A stretch of DNA of 32,940 bases from a virus. Location of the stretch: positions 1 through 32,940 of IMG/VR virus record IMGVR_UViG_3300035698_006715; one strand, given 5' to 3'. Shown here piece after piece: positions 3,655-31,944 of this stretch. The first letter of the stretch is position 1. Every line of letters begins with the position of its first letter. The position numbers and the translations under genes were made by a program. Below the pieces are notes generated by a model. That model saw only the letters and a list, made by a program, of their open reading frames with translations. It was not told the DNA's origin and did no database searches.

Positions 3655-4047
3655 ATGGCAGAGACAATAGAAGGAGTAGGTACGTTAGTGGGAGTAGCCC
3701 CTACCATAGCCCCTACGGGCATTGTTGGAAGTTCAGATAATGAGGGGTACATCTCTGTATTGGCGGATGCTGATAATGAATTTTTGATTTATGATGTAGA
3801 TGCTGCTACAAGGCTGAAGCATTATAACTACACAGCAGAGCCTCGCAGAGAAGAGTTGTGGAAAACTAATAACGGTAGATATTTTACACGAATTTCTAAA
3901 GAACAGCTATTAACTTCTTGGATCAATTTCGTGATAACACCTTTAACATCCACAGAAGCTATGGCGTGGTTATTGGACAAAGCAGGCTCAACTGACCTTG
4001 TATCTCACTTGAGAGATGATGATGTGTGGGAATGGGCATACAGATAA
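3655..4047 (+). CDS. Hypothetical protein, paralogue of the 2771-3079 product (130 aa)
   Basis: The open frame extends upstream to 3490, overlapping the previous gene, but the ATG at 3655 has GGGAG about nine bases upstream and fits the packed layout. The N-terminus is Gly/Thr/Pro-rich (EGVGTLVGVAPTIAPTG), then a mixed alpha/beta part. From residue about 63 (EPRREELWKT) to the end it aligns with the 102-residue protein at 2771. The last codons, VWEWAYR-stop, lie in a DNA segment that is repeated about 72 bp downstream, where it encodes VWEWVYS-stop. Function unknown. Confidence 0.72.
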   Translation: MAETIEGVGTLVGVAPTIAPTGIVGSSDNEGYISVLADADNEFLIYDVDAATRLKHYNYTAEPRREELWKTNNGRYFTRISKEQLLTSWINFVITPLTSTEAMAWLLDKAGSTDLVSHLRDDDVWEWAYR

Positions 4048-4154
4048 GCCTACAGTCCCGTATAAGGGATATGGAAGAACATTTAAGAGCGGGGGTGTGG
4101 GAATGGGTGTACTCATAAGTTTGCAAGCACGTATACGGGACATGGAAGAGCATG
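4024..4154 (+). repeat. Imperfect tandem duplication at the gene junction
   Basis: Copy 1 (about 4024-4082) and copy 2 (about 4096-4154) both begin GTGTGGGAATGGG and end with a RIRDMEEH-coding segment; they differ at scattered bases. Each copy encodes the same pair of things: a VWEW.Y.-stop ending in one frame and an overlapping MG..ISLQ.RIRDMEEH beginning in another. The duplication explains the small 28-codon frame and the start of the HNH gene. Confidence 0.8.
4032..4118 (+). CDS. Tiny overlapping ORF in the duplication (28 aa)
   Basis: An ATG at 4032, 16 bases inside the end of the upstream gene, opens a 28-codon frame starting MGIQISLQSRIRDMEEH and ending AGVWEWVYS. Its start matches the start of the HNH protein and its end matches the end of the upstream 130-residue protein. 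It is therefore a hybrid created by the local duplication. The upstream context GTGTGGGA is the same as that before the HNH start, and only a weak ribosome binding site is present. It may be translated by coupling or may be a by-product of the rearrangement. Confidence 0.35.
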   Translation: MGIQISLQSRIRDMEEHLRAGVWEWVYS

Positions 4155-4411
4155 ACCTTGGATATGAACACTGTGTATTTGTGAGGGATGACTTTACATG
4201 CCGTGTATGTGGTGTTAAAGAAGAGAATTTAGAAGTACACCACACAAAACCATTTGCATTGATTATTGTGGCCCTGTTGGAGAAACATCCTAACTCTAAG
4301 GTAAGTAAAGAGTTTAAAGAGACACTGGAGTTTGAGGCGTTTTCAAATAAAGATAATATGCTTACTGTATGTAAAGCATGCCATAGGAGTATACATGGCA
4401 GCAAAGCGTAA
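4103..4411 (+). CDS. HNH endonuclease (102 aa)
   Basis: HNH proteins cut DNA through a beta-beta-alpha metal site. The motif is complete: CRVC (Cys33 and Cys36), LEVHH (His46-His47), Asn85 in NKDN, and CKACH with Cys90, Cys93 and His94, then His98. The four Cys form the expected zinc site. Upstream in-frame codons reach 4016, but the ATG at 4103 matches the duplicated MG..ISLQ start and overlaps the tiny ORF. Its stop overlaps the terminase small subunit start by 17 bases. HNH proteins next to terminase genes take part in genome packaging in HK97-like phages, so a packaging role is likely. A homing nuclease is the alternative. Confidence 0.88.
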   Translation: MGVLISLQARIRDMEEHDLGYEHCVFVRDDFTCRVCGVKEENLEVHHTKPFALIIVALLEKHPNSKVSKEFKETLEFEAFSNKDNMLTVCKACHRSIHGSKA

Positions 4412-4892: not shown

Positions 4893-6387
4893 AAAAGAGA
4901 CCGAAGCCCTCTTTCGACTCTTGGAAGAACAGGAAACACGGATTAAGAAGTGCCCCATCGCCCACCTTGAGTGGAATGTTGGGGGGCAAGCACTGGCTGC
5001 TGAAGTGGTAGAGAGTACAGATTTACTGTTATTCTGTGCGGGGAACCGTTCAGGTAAGACTCATTTTACTGTGGCAGAACTCATGGCCGCTATGATAGGG
5101 TACAGGCCATGGATGGTCCCTGGTTTTAAAATGGTGGAAGACACGTCAGGTAATCCAAAGTTCCCTGAGCGGGACGAGATGCCCCCAGAATCATGGGTAC
5201 GCCGTAGTGATGGCCTCCCCATACAACACCCAGCTACAATACTATTTGTAACAGGGCTGCCACTAAGCAAGGGTTTAAAGATCCTTGAAAAGAAGTGGTA
5301 TGAATTACTCCCTAAAGGCGTTAAGTTCACACGATACTCTGGTCAGTGGGGTGTCATGGCCAAAGCTACACTACAGGGGTCTGAACTGATATGTGGTGCA
5401 GACACTCAGGGAGTGCAGAGTTTTGAAGGTGCGGATTATGATGGGGCTTTTCTCGATGAGCCTATAAGAAAAAGAGTATACACTGCCATAAGGCGTGGGT
5501 TGATAGATCATAGGGGGAGAGTTGTATGGTCAATGACTCCCCTTAATGACTCCAGAGCGGCGTGGGTGGCCCGTGATATAGTGCTTAATGAGGAGGACAG
5601 GGAGAATGTCAAGGTTGTATATGGCAATGCCAGTGACAATCCCCACGTAGACCAAGTGGCCCTCGATGCTTTCCTTGAAGACCCCTCCATGTCTGAGGAC
5701 GAGCGGAAGGCACGTAAGACGGGAGAGTTCGGGAGTATGGGTAATAGGATAGTTTCCACATTCAATGAAGCTACCGCAGTGATCCCGCCAACGGATATCC
5801 CCCTTGATGTGCCAAGGATGCTTGTGGTAGATCCCCATCACAGTAAACCAGCTTGTATGGTGTGGTTTGCGCTGATGTCGGATGACCACTGGGTAGCTTA
5901 CAGAGAATGGCCCACAGTACCTATCCACACACAAGGCGTCCCCCGTATGGGGATGAAAGACCTTTCTGCACTTATGAAGTCTGCTGAAGGGAAGGAGAGG
6001 GTCATGTACAGGTATTGTGATCCTCAGTTTGGGAGACAACATGGTGCTGTGTTAGGGCAGAGATTCAAATCCTTCCAGGAGGAGATGGGCGACTTCGGCC
6101 TTATTTTTGACGCACACTTAGACAACAACATAGACAGGGGCATCACAGCCCTTAGGGATGCTTTCATAGTATCACCAGAAACAAACAGAACTAAGATTCA
6201 GGTGTTCGGCAGCTTAAAGAATACCGTAACTTCTCTTGGTTTATGGACATATGAGGACACACCAAGTGGGGAACGCAAGGTGTCTGAGAAGATGAAGGAC
6301 TTTTGTGATGTGGTAAGATACGCCTTAATGGCTAACCCTGCTGCTGATGTTTCAGAAGAAGGCGGATACAGTTATTTGGAGGACTGA
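4885..6387 (+). CDS. terL: Terminase large subunit (500 aa)
   Basis: This is the ATP-driven motor and nuclease that packages DNA through the portal. The ATPase domain shows Walker A GNRSGKT at residues 53-59 and Walker B GAFLDEP with Asp191 and Glu192. A coupling-type SMTPL follows. The RNase H-like nuclease domain begins around 312 (MLVVDP), with candidate metal-binding Asp316, Asp379 (YCDPQFG) and Asp475 (DFCDVV). Length is normal for the family. It overlaps the small subunit by eight bases and ends TGATG, so the next gene is coupled. No frameshift or intein is visible. Confidence 0.96.
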   Translation: MDRKETEALFRLLEEQETRIKKCPIAHLEWNVGGQALAAEVVESTDLLLFCAGNRSGKTHFTVAELMAAMIGYRPWMVPGFKMVEDTSGNPKFPERDEMPPESWVRRSDGLPIQHPATILFVTGLPLSKGLKILEKKWYELLPKGVKFTRYSGQWGVMAKATLQGSELICGADTQGVQSFEGADYDGAFLDEPIRKRVYTAIRRGLIDHRGRVVWSMTPLNDSRAAWVARDIVLNEEDRENVKVVYGNASDNPHVDQVALDAFLEDPSMSEDERKARKTGEFGSMGNRIVSTFNEATAVIPPTDIPLDVPRMLVVDPHHSKPACMVWFALMSDDHWVAYREWPTVPIHTQGVPRMGMKDLSALMKSAEGKERVMYRYCDPQFGRQHGAVLGQRFKSFQEEMGDFGLIFDAHLDNNIDRGITALRDAFIVSPETNRTKIQVFGSLKNTVTSLGLWTYEDTPSGERKVSEKMKDFCDVVRYALMANPAADVSEEGGYSYLED

Positions 6388-6677
6388 TGAAAGAGCGTAT
6401 TGAAAATTTGTGGACTAACTTTTGGTATTTGTTTGTAGGTTTGGGTGTTTTGGTTTACTTTCTTCCTGGGTGTACCAGTGGTGAAGACGTTAAACTTGGT
6501 ATAGAGGTGGCAAAGGACGCTACTGCAGAAAGTGGTATTGAGATAATCACCACGGCTACACAGGGGGATTGGGTAGGTGCAGGGGTTGCTGTTGGTACAG
6601 CAGTTCTTGGTGCCATAGGAGCCTACTTCACAGCCAGGAAAATAAGGCAGGTAAAGAATGCTAAAAAAACTAATTAG
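6387..6677 (+). CDS. Small membrane protein with two hydrophobic segments (96 aa)
   Basis: The start overlaps the terminase stop (TGATG). Residues 8-28 form a hydrophobic segment ending LPGC, which is close to a lipobox with Cys29, though Pro at -2 is unusual. Residues 62-81 (WVGAGVAVGTAVLGAIGAYF) form a second Gly/Ala-rich span, followed by a basic tail RKIRQVKNAKK. Possible roles are holin-like lysis protein, lipoprotein, or superinfection factor. No specific family is recognised. Its pairing with the next small membrane protein is suggestive of a lysis pair, but no endolysin is nearby. Confidence 0.75.
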   Translation: MKERIENLWTNFWYLFVGLGVLVYFLPGCTSGEDVKLGIEVAKDATAESGIEIITTATQGDWVGAGVAVGTAVLGAIGAYFTARKIRQVKNAKKTN

Positions 6678-6849
6678 TTTGTTATGTGTGACAGCCTTTC
6701 TTGCTGCAGTATATGTGTATTGCCAGGGAGGCTTGAATATACAGAGTAAGGGAAAGATAGGAGAGAAGTTGTATCAGTTCCAGTGCATTCTTAATATACA
6801 GGATAAAGTACATACTGCTCCAAAGATACTTAAATACCCCAAACTATGA
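6658..6849 (+). CDS. Small exported or anchored protein (63 aa)
   Basis: It starts 20 bases inside the previous gene, with the AGGCAGGTAAAG stretch upstream serving as ribosome binding site. The N-terminus MLKKLISLLCVTAFLAAVYVY is a classical signal peptide or signal anchor (basic, then hydrophobic at about 5-22). The remaining 40 residues are polar-basic (KGKIGEKLYQFQCILN). The stop overlaps the next start by ATGA. An exported accessory to the previous membrane protein, such as a spanin-like partner, is possible; there is no motif to prove it. Confidence 0.7.
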   Translation: MLKKLISLLCVTAFLAAVYVYCQGGLNIQSKGKIGEKLYQFQCILNIQDKVHTAPKILKYPKL

Positions 6850-7469
6850 TAAATATCCTCACCAACAACAAAGCTACTGCGTATAAGGACGTTATACGAC
6901 AGTTTGCACGTATAGGTGGGGAAGAGGTATCCGTATTACCGGACACTCCAGCAGTTATAACGCAGTTATTTCGTGACGTGAACTACACAAATGGTCGCCT
7001 TATAATAATGAGACCATCGTTTATTCCCTCCCCCAGTTTCTTTGAGGAGCTTGACTACTTCTATAACCAGGGCGTCCACATAATTGTTCCAAGGGCATAC
7101 CAGGCAGTGTTTAATCCTGGTGAGGACACCCCATACAGGATGGATGAACAGGGTATTTGTAAGGACTTTGTGGTGTTTCAGTTAATGGGACAAAAATCAT
7201 TTGTACTACCACAGGACTTTCACTGGGAGTATTTGGAAAATGTTAAACGAAATAGTATTTACAGAATCGAGTCGAGATACTCAGGATCATTTGAAACAGG
7301 TTTCTCGCTCAGAAGCACTCTCGGAGATATCATACCAGGCGTCACTAAAGGCGGCTCGATTGTCTTTCTTGGCAGAGATGACCTTAATAGAGATACAATT
7401 ATTGAAAGAGGCATACAGCGAAAGCTTGTAAACGCCGCAGAAAAGGCTTTAAGCATATGGCTAAAATAG
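6846..7469 (+). CDS. Unknown alpha/beta protein (207 aa)
   Basis: No family is recognised. The N-terminus MINILTNNK is a short beta strand typical of nucleotide- or sugar-binding alpha/beta enzymes, and closely matches the start of the formyltransferase-like protein on the other strand (MRINILTNTP). Further features are RLIIMRPSFIPSPSFFEELD, a VHIIVPRAY strand and a C-terminal GGSIVFLGRDDLNRD segment. It overlaps the upstream stop by ATGA and the downstream glycosyltransferase by 13 bases, so its expression is tied to that enzyme. A role in the same glycan pathway is plausible from context only. Confidence 0.7.
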   Translation: MINILTNNKATAYKDVIRQFARIGGEEVSVLPDTPAVITQLFRDVNYTNGRLIIMRPSFIPSPSFFEELDYFYNQGVHIIVPRAYQAVFNPGEDTPYRMDEQGICKDFVVFQLMGQKSFVLPQDFHWEYLENVKRNSIYRIESRYSGSFETGFSLRSTLGDIIPGVTKGGSIVFLGRDDLNRDTIIERGIQRKLVNAAEKALSIWLK

Positions 7470-8257: not shown

Positions 8258-10236
8258 AACAGAACCCGCTTAGTTTAACAGTGTTACAGAGCCTGGACCT
8301 CGACGCACACAAGGCCGACATTACCAGGATCTCCCAGGCCATTGAGCTTGAGAAAGGTAACCGTTCTAAGTGGGCTGATAACATTAGAAAGGTGAGGAAA
8401 CTTGTAGATGGCTCACAAAAAAGAAAGAACAAACCATGGGCTGGTGCCTCCGATACCTGTATTCCCCTCATCAAACGACAACTCCGCCGCTGGAAACCTT
8501 CTCTATACAACTTATACGCAATGGCCGATCCCTTATGCGCTTTTTACGCCTCGGATATCCAGGGATTGGAGATGGTAGAACCAGCGGAGAGGTTCTTTGA
8601 CTGGTTGGTGAAAGTCCATATGGATGACACTGATGATCAGATACAGTACCTCACCAATTATATTGGTAGAGATGGAAGTGGTTATATTGGCGTGTCCTGG
8701 GATTACAGGACGAGTGTCCAGTCACGGGTGGTATCAGTAGAGAATATCTTCCCTAAAGGTGTACCCAAAGATCCTCAACTTGTTATACAGACACTGGTGG
8801 ATCAGTATGAGTTGAACATTGTTGACCAACGAGTAGTTGAGATGCTGGACGAGGCTGTCCAGAGGATACAAGCTGGTGCCCCATTTGTGCAAATCAAGTA
8901 CGACAAAGTAGTTAAGAACAAACCGAAGCTCATATCCTATGATCCCACGTACATAGTAACCCCTGCCCACAGTAGCACTGCGCACGAGGCTCCGTGGGTT
9001 GCCATTATACACGAGATGACCAAGAATGAACTACTTCAAAAGGCAAAGGATGGGTTCTTCCTCCCAGAAACTGTTGCTGCACTCTTGGCTAAAACACAGG
9101 ATACTGCATCGGATAGCCCACCAAGCTCCCCAATGGCCAGCACAGACGGCCCTTATAACAAACAAACCCGTCTACAGGACGCTGGTATCCACTCTACTAA
9201 CAAAAACTACCCTGTGTACCAGGTTTTCTGCCACATTGACTGGAATGGGGATGGAATTAAAGAGAAGGCAGTGCTGTGGTACACTGATAAATCAGGTGCC
9301 CCTGAGGTATTGGCCCTCTTCCCTTACTCCCTGTCTATGGATCATTGGCCTATATTCCGCTTTGACTATGAGCGAACTGAGCCTGGTCCATATCTGTCAC
9401 AGGGTATGGGTAGGATGTTAATGCCACTTCAGAAACAGTTGAATAAACAGTATAGGGCACGGTCTGACGCCATTGATATACAGTTGGCCCCAGTCTTCCA
9501 GAAGCGCATTACAGGCGGATTACGCAGTCGCAACATCAAGTGGGGTCCAGGTAGGGTAATTGACGTTCAGGAGATAGGAGACATAGCTCCGGTAGAGAAA
9601 AGTGCCTTCAATCTACATGAATACATCAACAGTGAGAGTATAATAGAGAACTATGCTGATACTCTTGTGGGTAGCCTCGTTAACGACTTACAGGCCACAG
9701 GGAAGAAACTGGAACGCCGTACAGCCACTGAGGTGGGGCAAGTGTCCCAGACCAGCGAAGCTATGGCCAGTATGGACTCTGCTTGTTTCCAATCCACTAT
9801 GCGGTTGGTATGGCAGACACTCTGGCAGATGTGGTTGGATTTTGGAGAACGGGAGGTATACTACTGGGTTACCAAGAAACGTACACCAGAACTCTTCAAG
9901 AAGGCTGACTATGACAAGAACTTCCAACTCATGCCCACAGGCACACCTGGTAATACCAATAAGAATAACCAGTTACGTAAGGTGATGCAATTATTAGAGA
10001 TGGCGATGCAGGACCCAACGAGGAGTTTTAACATTCCATACCTCATCCACAGGGCCGCAATGCTTATAGATGATAGAATGGCCGATGCCGCTCTGCTCCC
10101 CCAGGCGCAGCAGATAGCCATGCAAACGCTTCAACAGGCAGCTAAGTTGATATCTGCTGGTGAGTTACCACCAGATGTCCAGCAAATGTTGACCTCTGGG
10201 GCGGATAATGTAGAAAAACAGGGAGGTTCGACGTAG
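8254..10236 (+). CDS. Portal protein (660 aa)
   Basis: The portal is the dodecameric ring at one head vertex through which DNA enters and leaves. Support comes from position after terminase and before the scaffold and capsid genes, from length, and from the typical core around residues 379-410 (YLSQGMGRMLMPLQKQLNKQ), with a stem-like helix before it. Conserved-looking N-terminal segments (DGSGYIGVSWDYR, around 140-155) and the Gln/Ala-rich C-terminal helices (QQIAMQTLQQAAKL) also fit portals. ATG 8254 overlaps the upstream stop by four bases. The stop TAG at 10234-10236 falls inside the loop of a hairpin. Confidence 0.9.
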   Translation: MKQNPLSLTVLQSLDLDAHKADITRISQAIELEKGNRSKWADNIRKVRKLVDGSQKRKNKPWAGASDTCIPLIKRQLRRWKPSLYNLYAMADPLCAFYASDIQGLEMVEPAERFFDWLVKVHMDDTDDQIQYLTNYIGRDGSGYIGVSWDYRTSVQSRVVSVENIFPKGVPKDPQLVIQTLVDQYELNIVDQRVVEMLDEAVQRIQAGAPFVQIKYDKVVKNKPKLISYDPTYIVTPAHSSTAHEAPWVAIIHEMTKNELLQKAKDGFFLPETVAALLAKTQDTASDSPPSSPMASTDGPYNKQTRLQDAGIHSTNKNYPVYQVFCHIDWNGDGIKEKAVLWYTDKSGAPEVLALFPYSLSMDHWPIFRFDYERTEPGPYLSQGMGRMLMPLQKQLNKQYRARSDAIDIQLAPVFQKRITGGLRSRNIKWGPGRVIDVQEIGDIAPVEKSAFNLHEYINSESIIENYADTLVGSLVNDLQATGKKLERRTATEVGQVSQTSEAMASMDSACFQSTMRLVWQTLWQMWLDFGEREVYYWVTKKRTPELFKKADYDKNFQLMPTGTPGNTNKNNQLRKVMQLLEMAMQDPTRSFNIPYLIHRAAMLIDDRMADAALLPQAQQIAMQTLQQAAKLISAGELPPDVQQMLTSGADNVEKQGGST

Positions 10237-11293: not shown

Positions 11294-12220
11294 ATGAGTG
11301 TTTTATCAACGTGGGATGAAATAGTCGCTGCAACATTAGACAGCGATTCAACAATTCGTGAGGAACTTCAGGACGCTATACACAACGTGGCACCGTTCAG
11401 GACTCCTCTTTTGTCAAGGCTCCGTCAGGTGCCTGTAGACAACAATCATGTACAGTGGCTTACTGATACTTTTCGGGCGGCTGCTGCTAACGCTTGGTTG
11501 GAAGGTATTGCGTTTACGGCGCAGGATCTTACCGTACCATCACGAGCGTCTAATACTACTCAGATCTTCTATGATGGTGGAGCGATCTCTGACCGTGCGA
11601 AGGTTACCGGACGTGCGGGAGTAGCAGATCCAATTTCATATTACGAGGGGAAAGACCTCATCGAAATGAAAAAGGATATGGAACTGGCCCTTGTTAAGGG
11701 ATCAGCCGCAACGGGTTCTACTGCCACAGCTTCACAGCTTGGTGGATTCATGAACATCGTAAGTACCAATAAGACTTCTTCAAGCTCCGTTACTTTGATT
11801 GAAGAGATTTTTGGTGACCTCTTGGAGATGGTGTGGGACGATACGGATGCCATGCCTACTGATGTATACGTTGGACCAAAGCTGAAACGAACTATCAGTA
11901 ATTATAGTACGGACGTAACCCGTAATATTGATGCTGCAGAGAAACGTCAGTTGCTCATCGTTAATCAGTATGACTCCGACTTTGGGGCCGTAAACATTCA
12001 CTTGCACCGTGATATGGATAGTACCGCAAGTGCCTGTGACCTTTTGTGCATCGACCCTAACTATTTCGCAACAGGGTGGCTGCAGCCTCTTCGTAGAGAA
12101 ATGCTCACAAGAGATGGTAAGCGTGATCGTTACCAGATCTCTGGTGAATTTACCCTCTTGTACGGTAATGAGAAAGCAGCGATGGTTGCTGCTCACTACA
12201 ACCCGTACCTTGGTGCGTAG
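11294..12220 (+). CDS. Major capsid protein, SU10/DUF5309-like (308 aa)
   Basis: This would be the main shell protein, with an HK97-type fold. The N-terminal pattern, a short helix, then NVAPFRTPLLSRLRQVPVDN and QWLTDTFRAA with AWLEG, matches the SU10 major head family. The middle holds KDMELALVKGSAA and Ser/Thr-rich loops. The C-terminal part DRYQISGEFTLLYGNEKAAM is the usual closing strand set. It is flanked by the scaffold and a strong terminator, so it has its own high-output transcript end. The ribosome binding site before ATG 11294 is poor (A-rich, AAAGACTAAATT), which is odd for the most abundant protein. Confidence 0.9.
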   Translation: MSVLSTWDEIVAATLDSDSTIREELQDAIHNVAPFRTPLLSRLRQVPVDNNHVQWLTDTFRAAAANAWLEGIAFTAQDLTVPSRASNTTQIFYDGGAISDRAKVTGRAGVADPISYYEGKDLIEMKKDMELALVKGSAATGSTATASQLGGFMNIVSTNKTSSSSVTLIEEIFGDLLEMVWDDTDAMPTDVYVGPKLKRTISNYSTDVTRNIDAAEKRQLLIVNQYDSDFGAVNIHLHRDMDSTASACDLLCIDPNYFATGWLQPLRREMLTRDGKRDRYQISGEFTLLYGNEKAAMVAAHYNPYLGA

Positions 12221-12228
12221 ACAGTCGG

Positions 12229-12258
12229 CTGGGGGACTAATACTCCCCCAGTCTTTTT
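12229..12258 (+). terminator. Intrinsic terminator after the capsid gene
   Basis: CTGGGGGA (12229-12236) and TCCCCCAG (12244-12251) form a perfect 8-bp GC-rich stem with a 7-base loop, followed by TCTTTTT. It starts nine bases after the capsid stop. This is the clearest terminator in the window. Confidence 0.9.
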
Positions 12259-12267
12259 AGGAGTAAC

Positions 12268-12444
12268 ATGCAGAGTATAAAAGATTTAGAGCATTGGATT
12301 GAGTTCAGATCAAAGGTAAACAATAGAGTTGAACGTACCAGAGCAAGACGGTACATAGAACGGATCAAACAGGACTTTAAAGCCCTTGAGGCAAAAGTTG
12401 ATGAGGCCCTAACCCCCCTCGATGAGGTATCAAGTGGCGAATGA
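12268..12444 (+). CDS. Small charged helical protein (58 aa)
   Basis: ATG 12268 has TAGGAG just upstream, right after the capsid terminator. The product is a single highly charged helix: KDLEHWIEFRSKVNNRVERT, then ARRYIERIKQDFKALEAKVDEAL, ending DEVSSGE. It looks like a coiled coil. The frame closes with TGA at 12442-12444, overlapping the next gene. No family is recognised. A head completion or assembly helper is possible by position. Confidence 0.75.
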   Translation: MQSIKDLEHWIEFRSKVNNRVERTRARRYIERIKQDFKALEAKVDEALTPLDEVSSGE

Positions 12445-12754
12445 AACACACATACATTTAAAAGGAAAGGGTGTTCGTGACTTTCTGGAGAATATGGCTC
12501 TTGCATGGAGAGCTAAGTACCCCCAACGAGCAGCGGAATATTTGAGAGTCCTTAAAGAGGACGCCACCGCCAGAGTGAATCCTACTGGTATGTCCAGGAA
12601 AGGCAACTTCCGTTATAAAGGAGCCATTCCAGAGGACATTTTTAATGTACTTGAGAAAAAATACCCTTACTTTTTCAGAAGTCATGAGAACATGAAAGCA
12701 TTTCAGGAAATCTTTATAGGTAAATACGCCCCCGACAACATCATAAGGAGTTAA
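12434..12754 (+). CDS. Hypothetical protein (106 aa), GTG start
   Basis: The frame is open from an ATG at 12422, but that codon lacks a ribosome binding site. The GTG at 12434 has GAGG six bases upstream and overlaps the previous gene by 11 bases, so it is preferred. The protein has a helical N-terminus (GVRDFLENMALAWRAKYP), a basic centre (RVNPTGMSRKGNFRYKG) and a C-terminal helix (IFNVLEKKYPYFFRSHENM). Function unknown. The stop TAA is immediately followed by the next GTG start, so the three genes 12268-15245 form one unit. Confidence 0.72.
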   Translation: MANETHIHLKGKGVRDFLENMALAWRAKYPQRAAEYLRVLKEDATARVNPTGMSRKGNFRYKGAIPEDIFNVLEKKYPYFFRSHENMKAFQEIFIGKYAPDNIIRS

Positions 12755-12755
12755 A

Positions 12756-15245
12756 GTGGCAGAAGTTAAGACCCCCATTAGTGTCTGTGTGATAGCAAAG
12801 AATGAAGAAAAGAATATTGAGCCGTTCTACAACAGCTTTAAAGATATTCTAACTCACCCCGAAGACGAAGTAGTCTTGGTGGACACTGGTTCCACAGACA
12901 AGACTGTAGAAGTAGCGAAGAGCTATGGCTGGAAAGTCATAGACCGATCTGACCTGTGCTCAACAGAGCTACTGGAAAAGGGAAGACGCCAGTTTGGCGA
13001 ACTCTTTGACAGGTACAGCACACACGAGCATTTCAAAGATGGCATATTGTCCTCCTTCGCAGAGGCAAGAAAAGCAAGCTTTGACGCCGCAAAGAATGAA
13101 GTCTGTATGTGGATAGACTTTGACGACGACCTTGTTAATGGACAGTTGTTGAGAGCGATGACAGACAATGTTGCGGCACGGAGTGCTGAAGCAGGTAAAG
13201 GGTTTGCCATCTTCTTGCGATACGACTACAGTTTCAATGAAAACGGTGAGTGTAATACTATTCTATGGAGAGAGCGTGTAGTCACCAAATCCACCTTTGA
13301 GTGGAAGGGTAGCTGCCACGAGAGTCTCATCCCTAAGAATGGTGGTGAATATGCAATGGCCAGGGACCCTAAGTGCCCTGTAGTCATACGTCACCGCTCC
13401 CCTAAGAAACACCAGTTCAGTGACCTCCGCAATTACATCATATTAAAGAATGATGTAGAATGTATCCACGACCCACGTACAATGTTTTATATTGCTAATG
13501 CGTGCCGTGGACTGAAGTTATTGAAAGAAGCCATTAGGTGGTATAAAGAGTTTATCCCACAGAGTGGCAACAAAGATGACATCATGTCAGCCATAATCAA
13601 CTTGGCTTATTGTATATCACAACAGGGAGATAAGTGGGAGGCCATTCAAGAATGCCTTAAAGCCCAGCTTGTGGACCCTGAAGATCCTCGTGTCTACTAC
13701 ACAGTAGCAGCTATATGGGGAGAGATGGGTAACTGGCAGAACGCCATAACATATGTAAAGATGGGCGACCAGTTCCAATTGAAGGACACACTACATGCGG
13801 TAGACCCTGCAACAATAGGCTACCAACCAGCCCTTATCCTTACCCAAGCATACCGCCACCTGAACCAACCAGAACTTGCTATGCAGGCTGGTGAAAGACT
13901 TCTGCAGTGTTCACCTGACGCATTCACACAAAAAGTTGTTGAGGATCTGGCAGCATGGGCACGGGCGGAAGCGTCTTCCACACAATTACTTAATACTATA
14001 GGTAGGGCAAAAAACCCACAGGAAGCTCTAAAACACTTCAAACTGTCACCACATCTTATGGATAGAGGGGTTGCTCACAAGGAGATACTGAGTCCTGGGG
14101 ACGTTAAAGGTAAACAGACCATAGCCTTCTTCTGTGGCCAGTCGGCTACAAAGTGGGGTCCACCCAGTATTGAGAAGGGTGTGGGCGCAAGTGAGAAGAT
14201 GGTGTATGAGGCGGCAAAGCGACTTGTTACAAAGGGTTTTAATGTACAGGTTTACTGCCGTCTGAATAGAGAAGAAGGTGTTTGTGAAGAGGGTATTCAC
14301 TGGTATTACAGTGGACGCTTTGACCCAAAACTCTTCAGAGACATTGTAGTTATATGGAGAATGCCAGAACTGGTTGGCAAGATGGATATAGAGTGTGGTC
14401 AGTTATACGTGTGGATGCACGATGTTGGAAACAACGGTGTGTGGACGGTGCCACTCCTCAGTAAACTGGACAAGGTATGGTTCTTGTCTGAGTTTCACAG
14501 GTCGCTTCACCCCAATGTACCTGACGATAAGGTATATATTACCCGTAACGGGGTGGATCTGGACAAGCATTTGTTCACTGAGGGGAAGAAAAAGAAGCGG
14601 GTAGTGTATTTCTCTTCTCCTGATAGGGGTTGGTTAACAGCAATTAAAGCCTTTAATAAGTCAAAACTATATAAAAAGGGCTACGAACTCCACATGTTCT
14701 ACGGTTTTGGGGAACTATGGAATGATGTATCTGCCAGCCAGGAGTATGGGCGCATTGTAGAACTGGATAAGGACATGCGTTTCTATGCCTATGAGTCTCT
14801 GTGTAGACAAGCTGCTTTGAATAGCAAGGGCGTTGTACACCGTGGCAAAGTTGGGTGGAATGAAATGGCTAAAGAACTACAGGATGCTGCCATCTGGTTG
14901 TACCCTACCAACTTCGACGAGATAAGCTGTGTGGCTGCAATGGAAGCGATGGCCGCTGGGTGTAAGGTAGTGGCCACAGACCATGCTGCACTTAAAGAAA
15001 CACTAAAAGATTACAGTGGTTGGTTTAAGACAACCAAAGAAGATGCGGCACAAAACCTCCGATTAGCTGCTGCTGATAAAAAAGATCCTGTCAAGCTGGC
15101 TAAGTTTGCCAAACGCTATGACATGGACAAACTGATTAACGAGTGGGATGCTGATTTATTTAGGAGGATTGATGGCGACGACGACCTTCGGCCAAGCGAT
15201 AATAGAGGTACAAAGAAAGACTGGGAGAAACGATTCGGGTTTTAG
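12756..15245 (+). CDS. Fused GT2-TPR-GT4 glycosyltransferase (829 aa)
   Basis: Two sugar-transfer domains are joined by a helical repeat. Residues 1-230: GT2 domain with ISVCVIAKNEEKNIEPF, VLVDTGSTDKTVEVAKSYG and the DxD-type WIDFDDD (Asp121-Asp125). Residues about 235-410: TPR-like helix pairs (ACRGLKLLKEAIRWYKEFIP; AAIWGEMGNWQNAITYVK). Residues about 435-829: GT-B type domain with NGVDLDKH, VVYFSSPDRGW and the donor-binding EISCVAAMEAMAAGCKVVAT. The GTG start has AAGGAG five bases upstream. The gene lies between capsid and adaptor and its last 74 bases overlap the adaptor start. Likely substrates are host glycans or virion proteins; the acceptor cannot be read from sequence. Confidence 0.9.
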   Translation: MAEVKTPISVCVIAKNEEKNIEPFYNSFKDILTHPEDEVVLVDTGSTDKTVEVAKSYGWKVIDRSDLCSTELLEKGRRQFGELFDRYSTHEHFKDGILSSFAEARKASFDAAKNEVCMWIDFDDDLVNGQLLRAMTDNVAARSAEAGKGFAIFLRYDYSFNENGECNTILWRERVVTKSTFEWKGSCHESLIPKNGGEYAMARDPKCPVVIRHRSPKKHQFSDLRNYIILKNDVECIHDPRTMFYIANACRGLKLLKEAIRWYKEFIPQSGNKDDIMSAIINLAYCISQQGDKWEAIQECLKAQLVDPEDPRVYYTVAAIWGEMGNWQNAITYVKMGDQFQLKDTLHAVDPATIGYQPALILTQAYRHLNQPELAMQAGERLLQCSPDAFTQKVVEDLAAWARAEASSTQLLNTIGRAKNPQEALKHFKLSPHLMDRGVAHKEILSPGDVKGKQTIAFFCGQSATKWGPPSIEKGVGASEKMVYEAAKRLVTKGFNVQVYCRLNREEGVCEEGIHWYYSGRFDPKLFRDIVVIWRMPELVGKMDIECGQLYVWMHDVGNNGVWTVPLLSKLDKVWFLSEFHRSLHPNVPDDKVYITRNGVDLDKHLFTEGKKKKRVVYFSSPDRGWLTAIKAFNKSKLYKKGYELHMFYGFGELWNDVSASQEYGRIVELDKDMRFYAYESLCRQAALNSKGVVHRGKVGWNEMAKELQDAAIWLYPTNFDEISCVAAMEAMAAGCKVVATDHAALKETLKDYSGWFKTTKEDAAQNLRLAAADKKDPVKLAKFAKRYDMDKLINEWDADLFRRIDGDDDLRPSDNRGTKKDWEKRFGF

Positions 15246-16110
15246 TTCCAGAATTAAAGCGGCTATAAACGCTGCCATTAGGACGTGGGCGAGGATACTA
15301 CCTTGGCCATCACTTGAAACATGGGGAGAAGTCACTTACGTGGGTGGGGGCTTCTTATACTTACCAGCGGATGTCAATAAAGTTATATGGCTCCTGGATA
15401 AGACAAATGAAAATGCTATGCAGCAGAGCCAGGATACGTGGGATAGGGACTACACAACCTACGTGGCTGAAGATACTTCTGGTTCTGCATATGAGTTTGA
15501 GGACAGAGGTATCTCCCCCACTATTACAACTGTGTCAGGTACTATGGCCGCTTTCTCCACAGATGCAAGTGATGTTGTTGGGGTATACTTCGAGGGTGTT
15601 ATCACACCTTCTATGGTCTCCTCTTATTCCTTAGCGTCTGTCTTCAATGAGTACAAGGGTGTCAAAGACATTACTCTCAATGGGTGTACACCTGTTACGT
15701 GCTCTCAACTCTTCACAAGCCTTGCGTCTGTGGGTAAAACTGCAGACAGTGACGGAGCAATCATTCTTCAGTGTGGTGGAACCACTGTAGGTATAATTGG
15801 CCCTATGGAGAACCAGTCCACATATCGCAAAATCAAGATCATGAAGAAGCCCACTGCAAATACAGTGTTCATGTACAAGGGATACTGTGACCCTACCAAA
15901 CTTACAGACACCAACCAACAGGTGCCTTGGTCTGTGAACTTCGACTTCATTGTGTGGAAAGCTGTGTCCCAAATACTGTGGGACCTCAGGGAAACTAACC
16001 GTGCGCAGGCAGCAGAGAACCAAGCCGGACAGATTGCCCAGCAACACATCAAACGTGAAGAGATGTTTGGGGGAGAGGGTGGGCGTATACAGCCGGAGGA
16101 TATGGACTAA
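15172..16110 (+). CDS. Head-tail adaptor, probable (312 aa)
   Basis: The start is inside the end of the glycosyltransferase gene. An upstream ATG (15148) exists, but ATG 15172 has TAGGAGG just before it. The N-terminus TTFGQAIIEVQRKTGRNDSG followed by IKAAINAAIRTWARILPW is typical of podoviral adaptor proteins that dock under the portal. A beta-rich middle (TYVGGGFLYLPADVNKVIWL, TITTVSGTMAAFSTDA) and a C-terminal helix (AENQAGQIAQQHIKREEMF) follow. It ends with TAATG, shared with the next gene. Assignment is from position, size and the N-terminal helix pattern. Confidence 0.75.
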   Translation: MATTTFGQAIIEVQRKTGRNDSGFSSRIKAAINAAIRTWARILPWPSLETWGEVTYVGGGFLYLPADVNKVIWLLDKTNENAMQQSQDTWDRDYTTYVAEDTSGSAYEFEDRGISPTITTVSGTMAAFSTDASDVVGVYFEGVITPSMVSSYSLASVFNEYKGVKDITLNGCTPVTCSQLFTSLASVGKTADSDGAIILQCGGTTVGIIGPMENQSTYRKIKIMKKPTANTVFMYKGYCDPTKLTDTNQQVPWSVNFDFIVWKAVSQILWDLRETNRAQAAENQAGQIAQQHIKREEMFGGEGGRIQPEDMD

Positions 16111-25218: not shown

Positions 25219-28200
25219 TTGGACTGGAGTAAACTTGCACCAGACACCGCCCTCCCACAGAAAAGTGAGGAGCAGTTAGATTTTGACCACAACATAGAAA
25301 TGGAAGTGGTTAAGCCCAACCCCATCTTCAACAACTCCCCTATAAAAGCACTGGCTATTATAGAGCAGGACGAGGAGGATAGGGAGGGTAACTGGTTATA
25401 CACCAGAGATAGATTGGTAGAGAGATTGTCTGGTTTAGGTACTGAGATAGGTGAGGCCACTAAGAATGCACCTGGTGGGGGTTGGTTAAGCTTCCTCCAC
25501 GGCCCTAAGAACCAAGCACAGCAAATGACCAAGGTCATCCGCAATTACAGGGGTTTCCGTAGAGAGGGAGGCAGTGCTGCACTCGGTGAGGCAGGGGCCT
25601 ATATGGAGGATCTCAAGTCACAGCTACACAAGAACGGGATCAATGTAAAGGATTCCCTCACCCTTAACAGTCTACTTGAAGGCTCCCATGACACACTCGT
25701 CAATGAGTTGGGCAAGGACTTCCACGGTAGGGCTGCTCCAGGGGATGAGAAGGTTATAGCTGGGATGGCCCTGATAAGTCAGGTAGTACGCCACTCTGAG
25801 CGCAAAGACAACACCGTGGCTGACACCATGCCTATAGTATTACAGACCCTCCAAGACGGTGGCCTTGATTTCAAAGGCCCATGGGGTAGATTCAACAATG
25901 AAGCCCACCAACTTCGGAGGGAGAGGGACCTGAAAAGTGTTGATCCCAACCTCACTGTTAATGAAGCCGTGAAACAAAGGGGCTGGTTGGACGTGGACGC
26001 CACTCGGATTAAGGACTGGTATCAGAAGCTCACGGGACAGGAACCTCCAGAGGACCTGCTCTTAAACGAAGCTCAGAAGCCCATCCTTGCATTTTTAGAT
26101 AATGTGGACTCATTGACCGCTAAAGCAGATAAAGCTGCCATATGGAAGTCTCTGGGGGTGGATATCAACCTTGACCATGTTAATGAAGACGGGACCATAG
26201 CAGGTATACGGGAGATGAAGGCCAGTGCAGGGGCCATGTACAGATATGATAGGTCTGTGGGTATGGATGTGGCGTGGGGGAATGAGTACGAACACGCTGA
26301 AACAGCCGCTGTAAATAGTATAAAGAACGAATTATTCACAAAAGGACCTGCGGAAACCCTAAAAAACACAGGTTTAACAGAGGAAAAGACCCAGCAATTA
26401 ACTGAACATTACCAACAAAGACTCCTCCCCAGGTCCATGTCTAAACCTGCTGAGTTTGGTGGGATTAAATCCCCTCAAATAAAGACAGAGCAGGAAGCGT
26501 GGGTGTGGTTGAGGCAACAGGCATTCAATGATAAGGAACTGGCAGGAGCCATAGGTGCGGCTAAGGGCACAAAAAGAGCAGCTTGGATTAAACGTAATGG
26601 TGAGGAGCTTGAGAAGATTGCCCTTAATGACGATATACCCAAAGAAGTAATGGACACTTACCGTGGCAAAGTTAAAGACGCCAGGGTGGAGGCCACTAAA
26701 ATTGCTGATAGGAAACAGGAGGAGTGGGATAAGTCATATTTGGCAAGACACTTTTCTACTGTGCTGGGGGCTGCTGGACACCTGATCCACCAAGTGCCAG
26801 GTGTTGGGTATATGGGAGAGAGTTTGAGTATGGTATTCAAGCAAGTTAATGCTGAACTGTACAATATTCCTGTGAGTGAGAGGCTGCCGGATGAGCTTGG
26901 TATTGATATAACAGAAAGATTACAGCAAGAACTCACCAACACCCTCGGATTTATGCCACGGTCAACGGATGAGTTGATTGAAACCTACCTCGACAAGGCC
27001 GCAATGGGGGAGACAATACCTGTTGTGGATCAGTTGTTTCTTATAGGAGGGATGGGCATGCGTATGTTCTATGACCTCCCCTTCGTAGCAATCAAGAACC
27101 CTGCTGAGTTTGCCTTAATTGGTAAGGGCCTCCATGCTTACGGCAAAGCAGCCACTGGTGTCATCAATAAAGTGAAGAAGGCCACAGGATCTAAAGCACT
27201 GGCAACCTTTACAGGCTTTGCCCTGCGCCCCCACGACATCCTCAAGAATATGTCTGAACCCCTCCGTGACTTCCAGAGTGAGCGTATGCTATTTGGTATG
27301 TCAGTGGGGAAGTTCAAGAACACCCTCAACAAAATGCCAGCATCCTTACGGGACCAATACTGGGAAACCTTCCAGAAGATATCCAATGAACTCTCCACAA
27401 GTGAGGTGGAGGGGATGTTTCAGGTATCCAATAAACTCAAGTCCATTGAGAGCGTTATGGGTAACCTTATTGCGAAGGCCAAGACCCAAAAAGGACTGTC
27501 TAATAGGGATGTCCACGCCTTCGCTGAGACTGCACGACAACACGGCGTACCATTAGAGGCCACCAACCTGGCCTTCGCCACACCATTTGGCAATGGACGC
27601 TTCGTGGATGGGATGGTTGCAGAGCACACCTACATTAAACAACAGCAACACTTTGCTAAGATAGAGAAGTCCATTGAGGTACAGTCTGGGGGCAAGTTCG
27701 GGAAGACAGCCGCTCAGAGTGTAGTGGACTTCAACAACAACTACCGCAAGTGGGTGGGGACACCTAAAGCGAGAGCGGCTAAGACCATACAGAAATCCCT
27801 CCAGGCAATGGGGTGGAACAACGAGTGGGTCAACAACCACATCAAAGCCTTTGCGGAGAGGGAGAAGTACGAAGAAGTTACTGCTATGGACCAGACTATC
27901 TTTGAGTCTGCCGCCCAGTTCAACTATGAAATGACACGGCGCACCAACTTCCGTAAACACCTCATGGACGGGATGAAGGAGACCTTCGACTTACGGCTTA
28001 ACAGTCTTGAGGGACTCCTCCCTAAACAGGAACCCACTACACCAGAGGGTAAGGCCAAGCTGAAGGGGATGCAAGACACTATCACGGCCAACAGGAATGT
28101 CAGGGACGTGCTGGACTATGATGGGAAGACCCTTGGGAAGCTCGGACAGAGTAGGCTTGTGCCCTTATCCAAAAACCCCGCCTCTGAGTTTAAGGAAGTG

Positions 28201-31200
28201 GAGAATGGTTGGCGTACATCGGGTGGGAAGCAGCACACTGAGGCCATATACGACCATCTGGCACGGCTTGTGTATGCTGATAGGGAAGTAATTGGAGAAC
28301 TCGGCCACTTCTTTGACAACATGGAGTTGCCTGGGAAGCTTGCCAAACTACGTAAGAACAAACCAGACGCCGCACACTTTGACTCCCTGAAGAAAATGAT
28401 TAAGAAGGCTGAGAGTGAGTCTGTTAATAAACTGTTTAGGGATAAACCCCCCATCAATAAGGAGCAGTTGGTTCGACAGGGTAGGGATATGGTTAAGACT
28501 ATCAAGCAGGTGGCGGGGGATACCAACAGTATGATCCTGGCAGACCTGGCAACGTCAGCTATAAACTCCCACTACAACATGAATCAGGGCCGCATCTTCC
28601 GTATGAAGTCTCAGCGCATTGAGAACCAGGGCCAGTGCCTCCAAGCCCGTATCGCCAGGGCCAGGGATTTACAGGACCAGATGTCAGACCAGCAGTCACA
28701 CACATTTGGTAAAATGGCCAAGCTAAGTAAAAAACAACTCATGAAGTTTAAGGATAAAAGCCCTTTGGCTGATGAGGTTATTGAAGTAATGGGAGTACGG
28801 GATCACCTTATAGATATGATGGTAGATGTTGGCCGCCTAACACGGGACGAGGCCAGTAGCATGAAGAGCAAGGGGATTGATCCCCACGTGTATGCCAAGG
28901 ATATCTACAGGAATGACCTACGCCAGTATGAGTCAGCCACTCACACCATTACTCAGGTAGGCACCAAGGATGCCCCAGAGTTCTCCCGTCTTAATGTCCA
29001 GAGGAAGGCCAACACCCCAAGGATCACATGGTTTGATGAGGCCCAGGGCAAACGCCGTATCATAGACGTGACCAAGGACAAAAAAGGGGAGACTCTTCCC
29101 ATAAACAAACGCCGCAAGGAAGCCCTGCGGCAGATACACGAGATAACAAACAAACAACCTGGCCTCAAGGGTAAGGTCCAACTGGTAGAAGAACTCAATG
29201 AGTTTGATATGGGTATGATGGGACTGTTCGATGCTGAAGGTAGCCATGTTATGTCCGTCCTGCAGGAGATGTTGGTGGATGTGACAAAGGCCCGACTCTT
29301 GAATGAGGTGGGACTGATGCAGGGGATGGTTATGTCTAAACTACCCCGTGAGTTTAGGACCAACGGCCTCGCTGGGGACTGGGTGTATTTAGGACCAACC
29401 AAACGGTACAAGGGCAGCGGCGAAGTAGAGCCAGTGTCCTTTCAAAACCTGAGCCATGAACAGCGGCTGCACCTGCGTAGAGAGTGGGGTACTATGGCGG
29501 GTAAGTATGTCCACAGGCGTTTCTTCGACCACATCAACTCCTGGGAGGACTACTCCACACTACTGAGTGAAGTGGGCAAGTCCATGAAGAGGGGGCGTGA
29601 GGAACTGGGCAAGACCTTAGGGGCTGAGTATGATAACATTATGGATACTGCCGCCTCCAGCATGGTAGATAAAATGTCTACACCTGGAGATACCGCCTTC
29701 TTCAAGTGGACGGGCAGGGCACTCAGACAGAACCTTATCACACAGAGCGTCAGCACCTTCAACAAAAACTTCATTGGTGCCCTCACCTTCGCCCATCAAT
29801 CAGGAGCAAAGCTACTGGACCCCAAGTTCTGGGAGGGTTTTGGGAATAAGAAACATGACGCTAACTTTGACAGTCTTTTAGACACATATACTAAGTATGA
29901 CCTCCACACCCTTAAAGTAAGGGGTACTCCAAAACAGCAACAGGCATCCATGGTGAAGGAGTTTTGGGACAAGGGGTGGTCAGCGGATAAGATTGACGTC
30001 ATCATGCACTTTAAGTATTGCCTGGACCACGGCCTAATTGAGAGGTCTGATGAGGGTATTGTTAAAGGTGGAGAGAGACAGCTTCGGCCTGGTAAAAGAA
30101 GTATTGCGGGGCAGAGGGTTAAGGAAATGCGTGGTATAGACCGTGATATGACACGGCACATGGAAGTGGCCAAGCACCTTAAGAATGTCCTTGACTCTGC
30201 GGAGAATGAGAAGCCTGATAGAGTGTACACTGATAAGCAGTTAGCACAGGCGGAACGTAGATTGTTTGTACACACTCAGGAATTAGCCAAATTACAGAAA
30301 GAAATGGTTAAGACCCACTTCCACAACAACTGGAAGGATGGGATGAATGAGGCGTGGCGGTACATTAAGAGTGGTGACCCTAAGAAACGTGGTAACTACT
30401 CAGTGGTCAAAGAGAAGATTAGCCAGGAGTACGGTAAGGTAGATCCCCGTATCAAGTGGATGTCGTACAGGTACTTTGTTGAGCAAATGGGGATGACGCA
30501 ACAGGCTGCTGTTGAGAGGGTAAAGGATTACCACCAGAACTACGGGGCCGTGTCTCCTGGTATAAGGAAGTTGAAGAATGTGCCACTCATGGGCGCACTG
30601 GTTACTTCATACCCTGCAGAGGCTCTGAGGATTATCAAGAACGGCCTCATGGAAAACCCTGGCAGGACCATAAGTCCCCTTGTGGGGACGGCTTTGTTTA
30701 ACTCTGGGGCCATGATGTCACAGGGAATGATGATGTCTGACTATGCCAACATGACGGGTAATGAGTCTCCGTGGGAGCAACTGCGGAACATGGTTGGGGG
30801 TTTGATGATACCTGAGGGCAACGGCGACTTCACCCGTATGGACCTCACAGATGCCACAGCTTTTGGGCCTTTCATGGAGTCCTCATCGATGTTTAAGTCC
30901 CTTACTGATGCTATGGCAAAGGACAACCTCCTTGCCCAGGCAGCACTACCACTTGCCAACTTCATGTCACAGTTTGTCATGAACACACCTGGTATGCAAG
31001 CCACACAGAAGATGGCCACTGGTGTGGACCCGTGGTCTGGTAAGGCTACATATGAGAGGGGGCTGAGTGATGGCATCACGTCTTTGGGGAAGAGTGGGTT
31101 GAACCTTATCCTCCCTGCTACAATAACACAATCATATGAGAGTATTGCGGCGTGGAAACAGTCTCCAGTATCCCTCATAACTCAACGCAACGTAAGGGGC

Positions 31201-31944
31201 ATAGACGCCGCACTCAGGATGATAGGGCTGCGTACAAGTAGTTTGGATAAGAAGCAACAGAAGGCACACCTGGCCCTGGGTTTCATGAATGAGACCACAC
31301 GGCTTGAGTTAATTAAGTCTTATGAAGAATTACCACGGGACTTTAAACACAAGGTGTATATGTTGGGTGAACACTTTGATGCTAAGGATGAGGAGCAGGT
31401 CAAGGAGTTTAAGTCTCTCGTGGATGAGAGGATGACACAGGTTGGGGACACACTGCAGGTGGGGAACCAGAAGTGGGATATGTCTAAGAGTGTGTACAGT
31501 AAGGTGGAGAAGAAGAAGAGGGCCAGCCAGATATTCAATATGCTACACAGGAATATCCACAAGACTATTGAGCGGATACCCATTGATAGGAAGCTCAAGT
31601 TTGCAAGGGCTGTTAAGAATACGTGGGGCAGGGATGAGCCTGAGTATAAACACACCATAACTTCACTGTCTGACCCTCGTTACTTGGCCAGTCAGAATGA
31701 TCTTGAGAAGCTACTGGCTGTGTGGAAGGAGACAGAGCAACTGAAGGGCACCACTACAGACCAGGCTTTCAGTAACGACTTACAGACTGTCCAAGGCGGC
31801 TTGATGCTCAAAATGAAAGACTTGATCCCTCGCATAGCAAACCGCCGTGAACAACTGATAAAGCAAATAATGTCCTCCACTAAGGGGAACATAGATGCCA
31901 ACTTAAACAGACTATTCCTACAGAGGGCTGGACTCAACCTTTAG
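25219..31944 (+). CDS. Giant virion protein, probable ejected internal protein (2241 aa)
   Basis: One uninterrupted 6.7-kb frame. The start is a TTG with AGAGG upstream, three bases after the previous stop. The protein is helical throughout, with few recognisable motifs; stretches such as AEFALIGKGLHAYGKAATGV (about 635), a KNFIGALTFAHQSGAKLLDP block (about 1518) and KLKNVPLMGALVTSYPAEAL (about 1780) look like amphipathic or membrane-contacting segments. No lysozyme, transglycosylase or RNA polymerase signature was seen. Podoviruses keep giant proteins of this sort inside the head for injection. Resemblance to large polyvalent phage proteins is suspected but unproven. The 3' end overlaps the convergent formyltransferase gene by 27 bases. 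Confidence 0.85.
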   Translation: MDWSKLAPDTALPQKSEEQLDFDHNIEMEVVKPNPIFNNSPIKALAIIEQDEEDREGNWLYTRDRLVERLSGLGTEIGEATKNAPGGGWLSFLHGPKNQAQQMTKVIRNYRGFRREGGSAALGEAGAYMEDLKSQLHKNGINVKDSLTLNSLLEGSHDTLVNELGKDFHGRAAPGDEKVIAGMALISQVVRHSERKDNTVADTMPIVLQTLQDGGLDFKGPWGRFNNEAHQLRRERDLKSVDPNLTVNEAVKQRGWLDVDATRIKDWYQKLTGQEPPEDLLLNEAQKPILAFLDNVDSLTAKADKAAIWKSLGVDINLDHVNEDGTIAGIREMKASAGAMYRYDRSVGMDVAWGNEYEHAETAAVNSIKNELFTKGPAETLKNTGLTEEKTQQLTEHYQQRLLPRSMSKPAEFGGIKSPQIKTEQEAWVWLRQQAFNDKELAGAIGAAKGTKRAAWIKRNGEELEKIALNDDIPKEVMDTYRGKVKDARVEATKIADRKQEEWDKSYLARHFSTVLGAAGHLIHQVPGVGYMGESLSMVFKQVNAELYNIPVSERLPDELGIDITERLQQELTNTLGFMPRSTDELIETYLDKAAMGETIPVVDQLFLIGGMGMRMFYDLPFVAIKNPAEFALIGKGLHAYGKAATGVINKVKKATGSKALATFTGFALRPHDILKNMSEPLRDFQSERMLFGMSVGKFKNTLNKMPASLRDQYWETFQKISNELSTSEVEGMFQVSNKLKSIESVMGNLIAKAKTQKGLSNRDVHAFAETARQHGVPLEATNLAFATPFGNGRFVDGMVAEHTYIKQQQHFAKIEKSIEVQSGGKFGKTAAQSVVDFNNNYRKWVGTPKARAAKTIQKSLQAMGWNNEWVNNHIKAFAEREKYEEVTAMDQTIFESAAQFNYEMTRRTNFRKHLMDGMKETFDLRLNSLEGLLPKQEPTTPEGKAKLKGMQDTITANRNVRDVLDYDGKTLGKLGQSRLVPLSKNPASEFKEVENGWRTSGGKQHTEAIYDHLARLVYADREVIGELGHFFDNMELPGKLAKLRKNKPDAAHFDSLKKMIKKAESESVNKLFRDKPPINKEQLVRQGRDMVKTIKQVAGDTNSMILADLATSAINSHYNMNQGRIFRMKSQRIENQGQCLQARIARARDLQDQMSDQQSHTFGKMAKLSKKQLMKFKDKSPLADEVIEVMGVRDHLIDMMVDVGRLTRDEASSMKSKGIDPHVYAKDIYRNDLRQYESATHTITQVGTKDAPEFSRLNVQRKANTPRITWFDEAQGKRRIIDVTKDKKGETLPINKRRKEALRQIHEITNKQPGLKGKVQLVEELNEFDMGMMGLFDAEGSHVMSVLQEMLVDVTKARLLNEVGLMQGMVMSKLPREFRTNGLAGDWVYLGPTKRYKGSGEVEPVSFQNLSHEQRLHLRREWGTMAGKYVHRRFFDHINSWEDYSTLLSEVGKSMKRGREELGKTLGAEYDNIMDTAASSMVDKMSTPGDTAFFKWTGRALRQNLITQSVSTFNKNFIGALTFAHQSGAKLLDPKFWEGFGNKKHDANFDSLLDTYTKYDLHTLKVRGTPKQQQASMVKEFWDKGWSADKIDVIMHFKYCLDHGLIERSDEGIVKGGERQLRPGKRSIAGQRVKEMRGIDRDMTRHMEVAKHLKNVLDSAENEKPDRVYTDKQLAQAERRLFVHTQELAKLQKEMVKTHFHNNWKDGMNEAWRYIKSGDPKKRGNYSVVKEKISQEYGKVDPRIKWMSYRYFVEQMGMTQQAAVERVKDYHQNYGAVSPGIRKLKNVPLMGALVTSYPAEALRIIKNGLMENPGRTISPLVGTALFNSGAMMSQGMMMSDYANMTGNESPWEQLRNMVGGLMIPEGNGDFTRMDLTDATAFGPFMESSSMFKSLTDAMAKDNLLAQAALPLANFMSQFVMNTPGMQATQKMATGVDPWSGKATYERGLSDGITSLGKSGLNLILPATITQSYESIAAWKQSPVSLITQRNVRGIDAALRMIGLRTSSLDKKQQKAHLALGFMNETTRLELIKSYEELPRDFKHKVYMLGEHFDAKDEEQVKEFKSLVDERMTQVGDTLQVGNQKWDMSKSVYSKVEKKKRASQIFNMLHRNIHKTIERIPIDRKLKFARAVKNTWGRDEPEYKHTITSLSDPRYLASQNDLEKLLAVWKETEQLKGTTTDQAFSNDLQTVQGGLMLKMKDLIPRIANRREQLIKQIMSSTKGNIDANLNRLFLQRAGLNL

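Follow-up and report, generated by a model that had tools for sequence, protein, structure and literature searches.

GmaR, SunS and ThuS are glycosyltransferases (GTs) which act on flagellin or bacteriocin peptides (PMC9638930, PMC6405829). SunS and ThuS, the glycocin S-glycosyltransferases (7msn, 7msp, 7msk), are soluble, and in them a GT2 domain of the GT-A fold is followed by TPR-like helices; their substrate is a peptide, and SunS is encoded by the SPbeta prophage. GmaR, the Listeria flagellin GlcNAc transferase and anti-repressor, is a chromosomal, flagellar protein with the same arrangement of an N-terminal GT2 followed by TPR, and modifies a self-assembling filament protein, which its TPR has been proposed to recognise (PMC9638930). 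In FlmG, the Caulobacter flagellin glycosyltransferase, a TPR domain binds the acceptor flagellin, which is modified by a GT-B domain (PMC7591256).

Few examples of glycosylated phage particles have been described, most of them in mycobacteriophages. Che8, Corndog and Myrna glycosylate capsid and tail proteins with their own GTs (PMC12363180), e.g., Che8 gp110 and Corndog gp38, the targets including the tail tube (PMC12363180, PMC12619734). Among eukaryotic viruses, the chlorovirus PBCV-1 encodes A111/114R, a three-domain GT which probably builds part of the capsid glycan without host organelles (PMC7826918).

The window analysed here is a 32.9-kb IMG/VR virus record of an uncultured phage, possibly a fragment, and without a named isolate. 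Its intact 829-residue ORF, which starts with GTG just downstream of AAGGAG, had been described in a sequence-only reading as a GT2-TPR-GT4 fusion, and the structure prediction and domain search which that reading called for both recovered the three parts (Table 1). Pfam matches were found for Glycos_transf_2 at residues 9–64 (E 2e-12), for TPR_2/TPR_1 at residues 241–310 (weak, 1e-6/6e-6) and for Glycos_transf_1 at residues 685–787 (E 9e-10), and the PHROGs matches, phrog_13126 and phrog_2170, are both glycosyltransferases. The AlphaFold2 model, built on a 32-sequence alignment, has a pLDDT of 89 and a pTM of 0.82 and shows three well-folded parts, with predicted disorder in a linker at about residues 429–440 and in the C-terminal tail (pLDDT about 40–54). 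No transmembrane segment is predicted (maximum 19-residue Kyte-Doolittle value 1.44), and the enzyme is predicted to be soluble.

Table 1. Features of the three-part enzyme gene and its head-gene neighbours (window positions)
Feature	Position	Strand	Details and evidence
Major capsid protein (MCP), SU10_MCP family	11294..12220	+	308 aa; PF17236 3e-62, phrog_1328 4e-56
Intrinsic terminator hairpin directly after the MCP gene, then TTTTT	12227..12253	+	sequence
58-aa ORF between MCP gene and enzyme	12268..12444	+	sequence
Small head-module protein	12434..12754	+	106 aa; helix-helix-loop-helix-helix; GMS in loop
Three-part glycosyltransferase GT2-TPR-GT4	12756..15245	+	829 aa; ORF, Pfam/PHROG, AlphaFold2
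GT2 (GT-A) domain	12756..13412	+	aa 1-219; Pfam PF00535, profile and Foldseek matches
WxDxDD motif of GT2	13116-13127	+	D121, D123, D124
TPR-like helical repeat region	13413..14006	+	aa 220-417; Pfam TPR_2/TPR_1, helix pairs in model
GT4 (GT-B) domain	14109..15170	+	aa 452-805; PF00534
EX7E of GT4	14919-14945	+	E722, E730
Overlap of enzyme end with adaptor start	15172..15245	+	74 nt; codes disordered C-tail of enzyme
Head-tail adaptor, SU10_adaptor-like	15172..16110	+	PF24175 2e-7; homologues in related loci

As in SunS and GmaR, the N-terminal half consists of a GT-A domain carrying a DxD-type motif and, directly after it, TPR-like helices. A profile search matched this half to GmaR (E 2e-38) and SunS (E 2.5e-30), TPR proteins also being among the matches of the enzyme. 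SunS and ThuS were its top Foldseek matches (7msp, rmsd 3.3 Å over about 335 alignment columns), with an identity of about 15–17% in the structure alignments. Judged by these comparisons, the GT2-TPR half has its closest solved relatives in the protein- or peptide-acting enzymes GmaR, SunS and ThuS; there may also be GT2-TPR proteins whose substrates are different or unknown. The C-terminal half combines a GT-B fold with EX7E, as is characteristic of the retaining GT4 enzymes. Taken alone, this part gave no PDB match by phmmer, but the fold search did give matches, with VIA-align Z values of 27–30 to MshA, PimA, BshA, tll1591 and sucrose-phosphate synthase.

The catalytic residues are kept across 32 homologues with identities down to 23%, and the three-part enzyme is therefore not a chance product. 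Among homologues with the region, the GT2 aspartates are conserved in 30/30 (D121), 31/31 (D123) and 30/31 (D124), the DxDD motif being kept in all but one; the GT2 domain also has HE at residues 188–189. In the GT4 domain, G477, S479, E480, R535, H555, D556, N598, R624 and E722 are invariant (32/32), and the second Glu of EX7E, E730, is Glu in the window and in 19 of the 32 relatives and Lys in 12. The dN/dS of the enzyme is qualitative only, as dS is saturated.

We note several differences from the described systems. SunS and ThuS possess no GT4 domain, and their substrate is a secreted bacteriocin peptide, whereas in GmaR the place of the GT4 domain is taken by a C-terminal anti-repressor part. 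FlmG, which we liken to the enzyme by description, has the order TPR-GT, a single GT, and pseudaminic acid as its sugar. The mycobacteriophage GTs are likewise compared by description. A111/114R resembles the enzyme in its way of working, i.e., in placing several GT domains in one viral polypeptide, but it belongs to a eukaryotic virus, makes an N-glycan and has three GT domains without TPR.

The fusion had been called uncommon for a phage protein, a view which does not hold: searching IMG/VR, phage records and bacterial genomes yielded 58 distinct ORFs, counting that of the window, in which both halves are present (median 790 aa), widespread in uncultivated phages, with the GT2-TPR part preceding the GT4 part in all 58. 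These ORFs are essentially all viral. In the bacterial-genome scan, which covered the best 80 loci by GT2-region patterns, a three-part ORF occurred only on one contig of a Patescibacteria MAG (L087), the others having GT2-TPR alone; since an SU10 MCP and the small head protein are encoded there too, this contig is itself viral, and a bacterial origin of the fusion was rejected on the basis of these 80 matches. A literature search found no report of a GT2-TPR-GT4 fusion or of its capsid-adaptor slot. In two loci, a groEL-like phage gene lies inside the GT gene (L003, 5640–7208; L030, 10627–12213) and splits the GT4 half, such that GT2-TPR keeps the N-terminal GT4 part and a separate gene encodes the C-terminal part, of about 197–209 aa.

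The placement of the gene between capsid and adaptor, as first read from the sequence, was upheld by the SU10_MCP match upstream and the SU10_adaptor match downstream, and so was the 74-base overlap, in that the adaptor ATG at 15172 is preceded by a Shine-Dalgarno sequence; the overlap is exactly 74 nt in L004 and L085 too. Co-expression with the capsid genes, which the same reading had assumed, did not fare as well. The capsid gene is separated from the enzyme gene by two small genes and an intrinsic terminator, and terminators of this kind follow the MCP gene in 12 of 33 relatives, compared with 0.56% of random windows drawn from the same contigs (one fixed scan). This strong terminator makes simple co-expression with the capsid doubtful. 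From the sequence, the capsid message probably ends, at least partly, before the enzyme gene, and the enzyme is probably expressed at a far lower level than the capsid; its gene would be transcribed by read-through or from another promoter. Low expression suits an enzyme that is required in small amounts.

L085 has an ORF similar to the 58-aa ORF of the window in the corresponding position, starting at 8932. The 106-aa protein belongs to a divergent family which adjoins the MCP or the enzyme in related loci; its AlphaFold2 model (pLDDT 70) has four helices and a disordered loop, and the G-M-S in this loop occurs mainly in enzyme-bearing loci, among which it is common, and is absent from several of them. 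Since the small gene remains beside the MCP gene where the enzyme is elsewhere, we regard it as a head-module gene. A role as a GT-specific partner was rejected for the same reason, and the gene is also present in loci without a GT in the DNA covered. It shows no detectable relation to the post-MCP gene of about 105 aa in PaP3/LUZ24-like phages (hhalign probability 0.8%). In L086, an IS605-type TnpB-like ORF with a CxxC zinc-finger end (6206–7312) lies between the MCP gene and the small head gene.

The link between the enzyme and the capsid extends well beyond the window. The enzyme starts less than 2.5 kb downstream of the MCP gene, on the same strand, in 23 of 32 SU10-MCP contigs. In an MCP-anchored search, 59 loci had at least 3.5 kb downstream, and for the part of the family from which the seed MCPs were taken, i.e., that of enzyme-bearing loci, the slot holds the three-part enzyme in 27/59, another GT-B enzyme (390–500 aa) between MCP and adaptor in 22/59, and neither the three-part enzyme nor another recognised GT in 10/59. 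A Pfam GT domain is present in five of six scanned loci with the alternative enzyme; such loci include L191, L192, L203-L205, L228-L230 and L235-L242. In some of the ten GT-less loci the small head gene directly meets an adaptor-like gene, so that the GT looks like an insertion into the head module. As these ten belong to the same capsid family, capsids of this type can do without the modification. Enzyme and MCP have diverged together: their distances correlate with a Mantel r of 0.926 (0/2000 permutations as high), and the nearest neighbour is identical for both proteins in 25 of 33 cases. In a second capsid lineage, with a phrog_14242 MCP (L025, L032, L033), the enzyme occupies the same slot, in the order MCP, small genes, GT, adaptor where the contig extends far enough. 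The enzyme is, in short, a phage-encoded GT that is genetically tied to virion genes.

Several relatives carry further sugar genes between the enzyme and the adaptor, i.e., an extra GT2, GT4, GT10, GDP-mannose 4,6-dehydratase or DegT aminotransferase, and in MW202524 the enzyme is followed by GT-like and methyltransferase genes by annotation. Such neighbours would make sense if the three-part enzyme supplied a core for other enzymes to elongate. In L194 (13530–19704), a GT10 of the fucosyltransferase type, a GT2/galactosyltransferase type enzyme, a GDP-mannose 4,6-dehydratase and a DegT aminotransferase occupy this interval together, a gene content that suggests a phage-made GDP-amino-sugar.

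We consider it probable that the enzyme is a soluble, protein-directed GT with two active sites, which would modify a virion protein of its own phage during head assembly. This reading draws on the synteny of the capsid slot, on the protein-acting relatives and, by analogy, on the mycobacteriophage precedent (PMC12363180). The GT2 domain, being of the SunS/GmaR kind, would place the first sugar on a side chain of the acceptor protein, which the TPR-like arm may hold, and the GT4 (GT-B) domain would then add the next sugar, such that a single polypeptide could make at least a disaccharide core; this order, GT2 first and GT4 second, is the simplest reading. The window phage appears to have a minimal version of the glycan system, and the further GTs and sugar-nucleotide enzymes of its relatives would make the glycan longer or more variable. 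Candidate acceptors are the MCP, the small head protein and the adaptor, besides other proteins; no motif that could mark an acceptor was confined to the enzyme-bearing capsids, and the GMS loop motif is only a lead as an acceptor signature. The glycan may serve particle stability, attachment or shielding. Glycosylation of virion proteins had been proposed before on the grounds of co-expression, a basis which the terminator weakens; the proposal itself gains indirect support from a capsid-tied slot kept over deep divergence and in two lineages, from the protein-acting relatives and from the predicted solubility. The docking role suggested for the TPR would, by analogy, fit the nearest solved relatives, which act on proteins or peptides (PMC9638930, PMC7591256).

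The main rival, which we regard as unlikely, is that the enzyme alters the host surface, i.e., LPS, capsule or teichoic acid, against superinfection, its late-operon position serving the timing. Both matching PHROGs fall in the "moron/host takeover" class, the usual annotation of phage GTs, pelagimyophage GTs have been read as O-chain modifiers (PMC7029224), and GT4 enzymes often make surface polysaccharides, several of these being among the fold matches. However, the enzyme differs from GtrB-type serotype conversion in having no transmembrane segment; it shows only a weak, short match to the GtrB-like phrog_841, and no GtrA/flippase family was found among the scanned ORFs. The GT2-TPR half is nearest to protein-acting enzymes, and a long linkage and co-divergence with the MCP, in two capsid lineages, would be unexpected for a host-range cargo gene.

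The replacement of the second EX7E Glu by Lys in 12 of 32 homologues and the interruption of the GT4 half by the groEL-like gene would agree with two separate jobs in one chain, in which GT2-TPR modifies a protein and GT4 makes another product, or in which one half is a silent scaffold; GmaR, itself a GT-TPR protein, has a second, unrelated job (PMC9638930). We judge this improbable, as both sets of active-site residues are kept in the window and in most relatives and the order of the domains is constant in all 58 three-part ORFs. Still less should be expected of DNA hypermodification, i.e., glycosylation of modified bases in the packaged genome, which is very improbable even though viral DNA-modifying GTs exist (cited in PMC12619734). 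The late position is compatible with packaging, but the GT2-TPR relatives act on protein, and no base-modification genes were recognised in the window, itself possibly a fragment. Furthermore, docking by TPR is not known from DNA GTs. A family search for defence systems gave no match.

Beyond the modification of a virion protein by this one enzyme, the whole MCP-adaptor interval could be a dedicated virion-glycosylation slot, filled by the fused GT2-TPR-GT4 or by another GT-B enzyme, the acceptor maybe being the small head protein; we put this forward tentatively, as possible and yet short of what we would expect. Variable sugar genes would then lie downstream, and the enzyme may use the interhelical loop of the small protein, often with G-M-S, much as SunS targets a Cys in a loop between helices. 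If so, virion glycosylation would be a common and ancient trait of SU10-type podoviruses. The presence of a capsid-linked fused enzyme in dozens of uncultivated podoviruses, with another GT in others, suggests that particle glycosylation is widespread among environmental phages; the gene arrangement marks phages for virion proteomics, and the soluble enzyme can be made and assayed.

Elsewhere in the window, the final large gene in the late region is a 2241-aa ORF (25219–31944) without a Pfam or PHROGs match. Two endonuclease-like genes, GIY-YIG-like (1687–2151) and HNH-like (4016–4411), precede the terminase. A tRNA-Tyr (GTA) at 2407–2492 lies within a 200-aa, GTG-start ORF (2159–2761), which is therefore doubtful as a gene.
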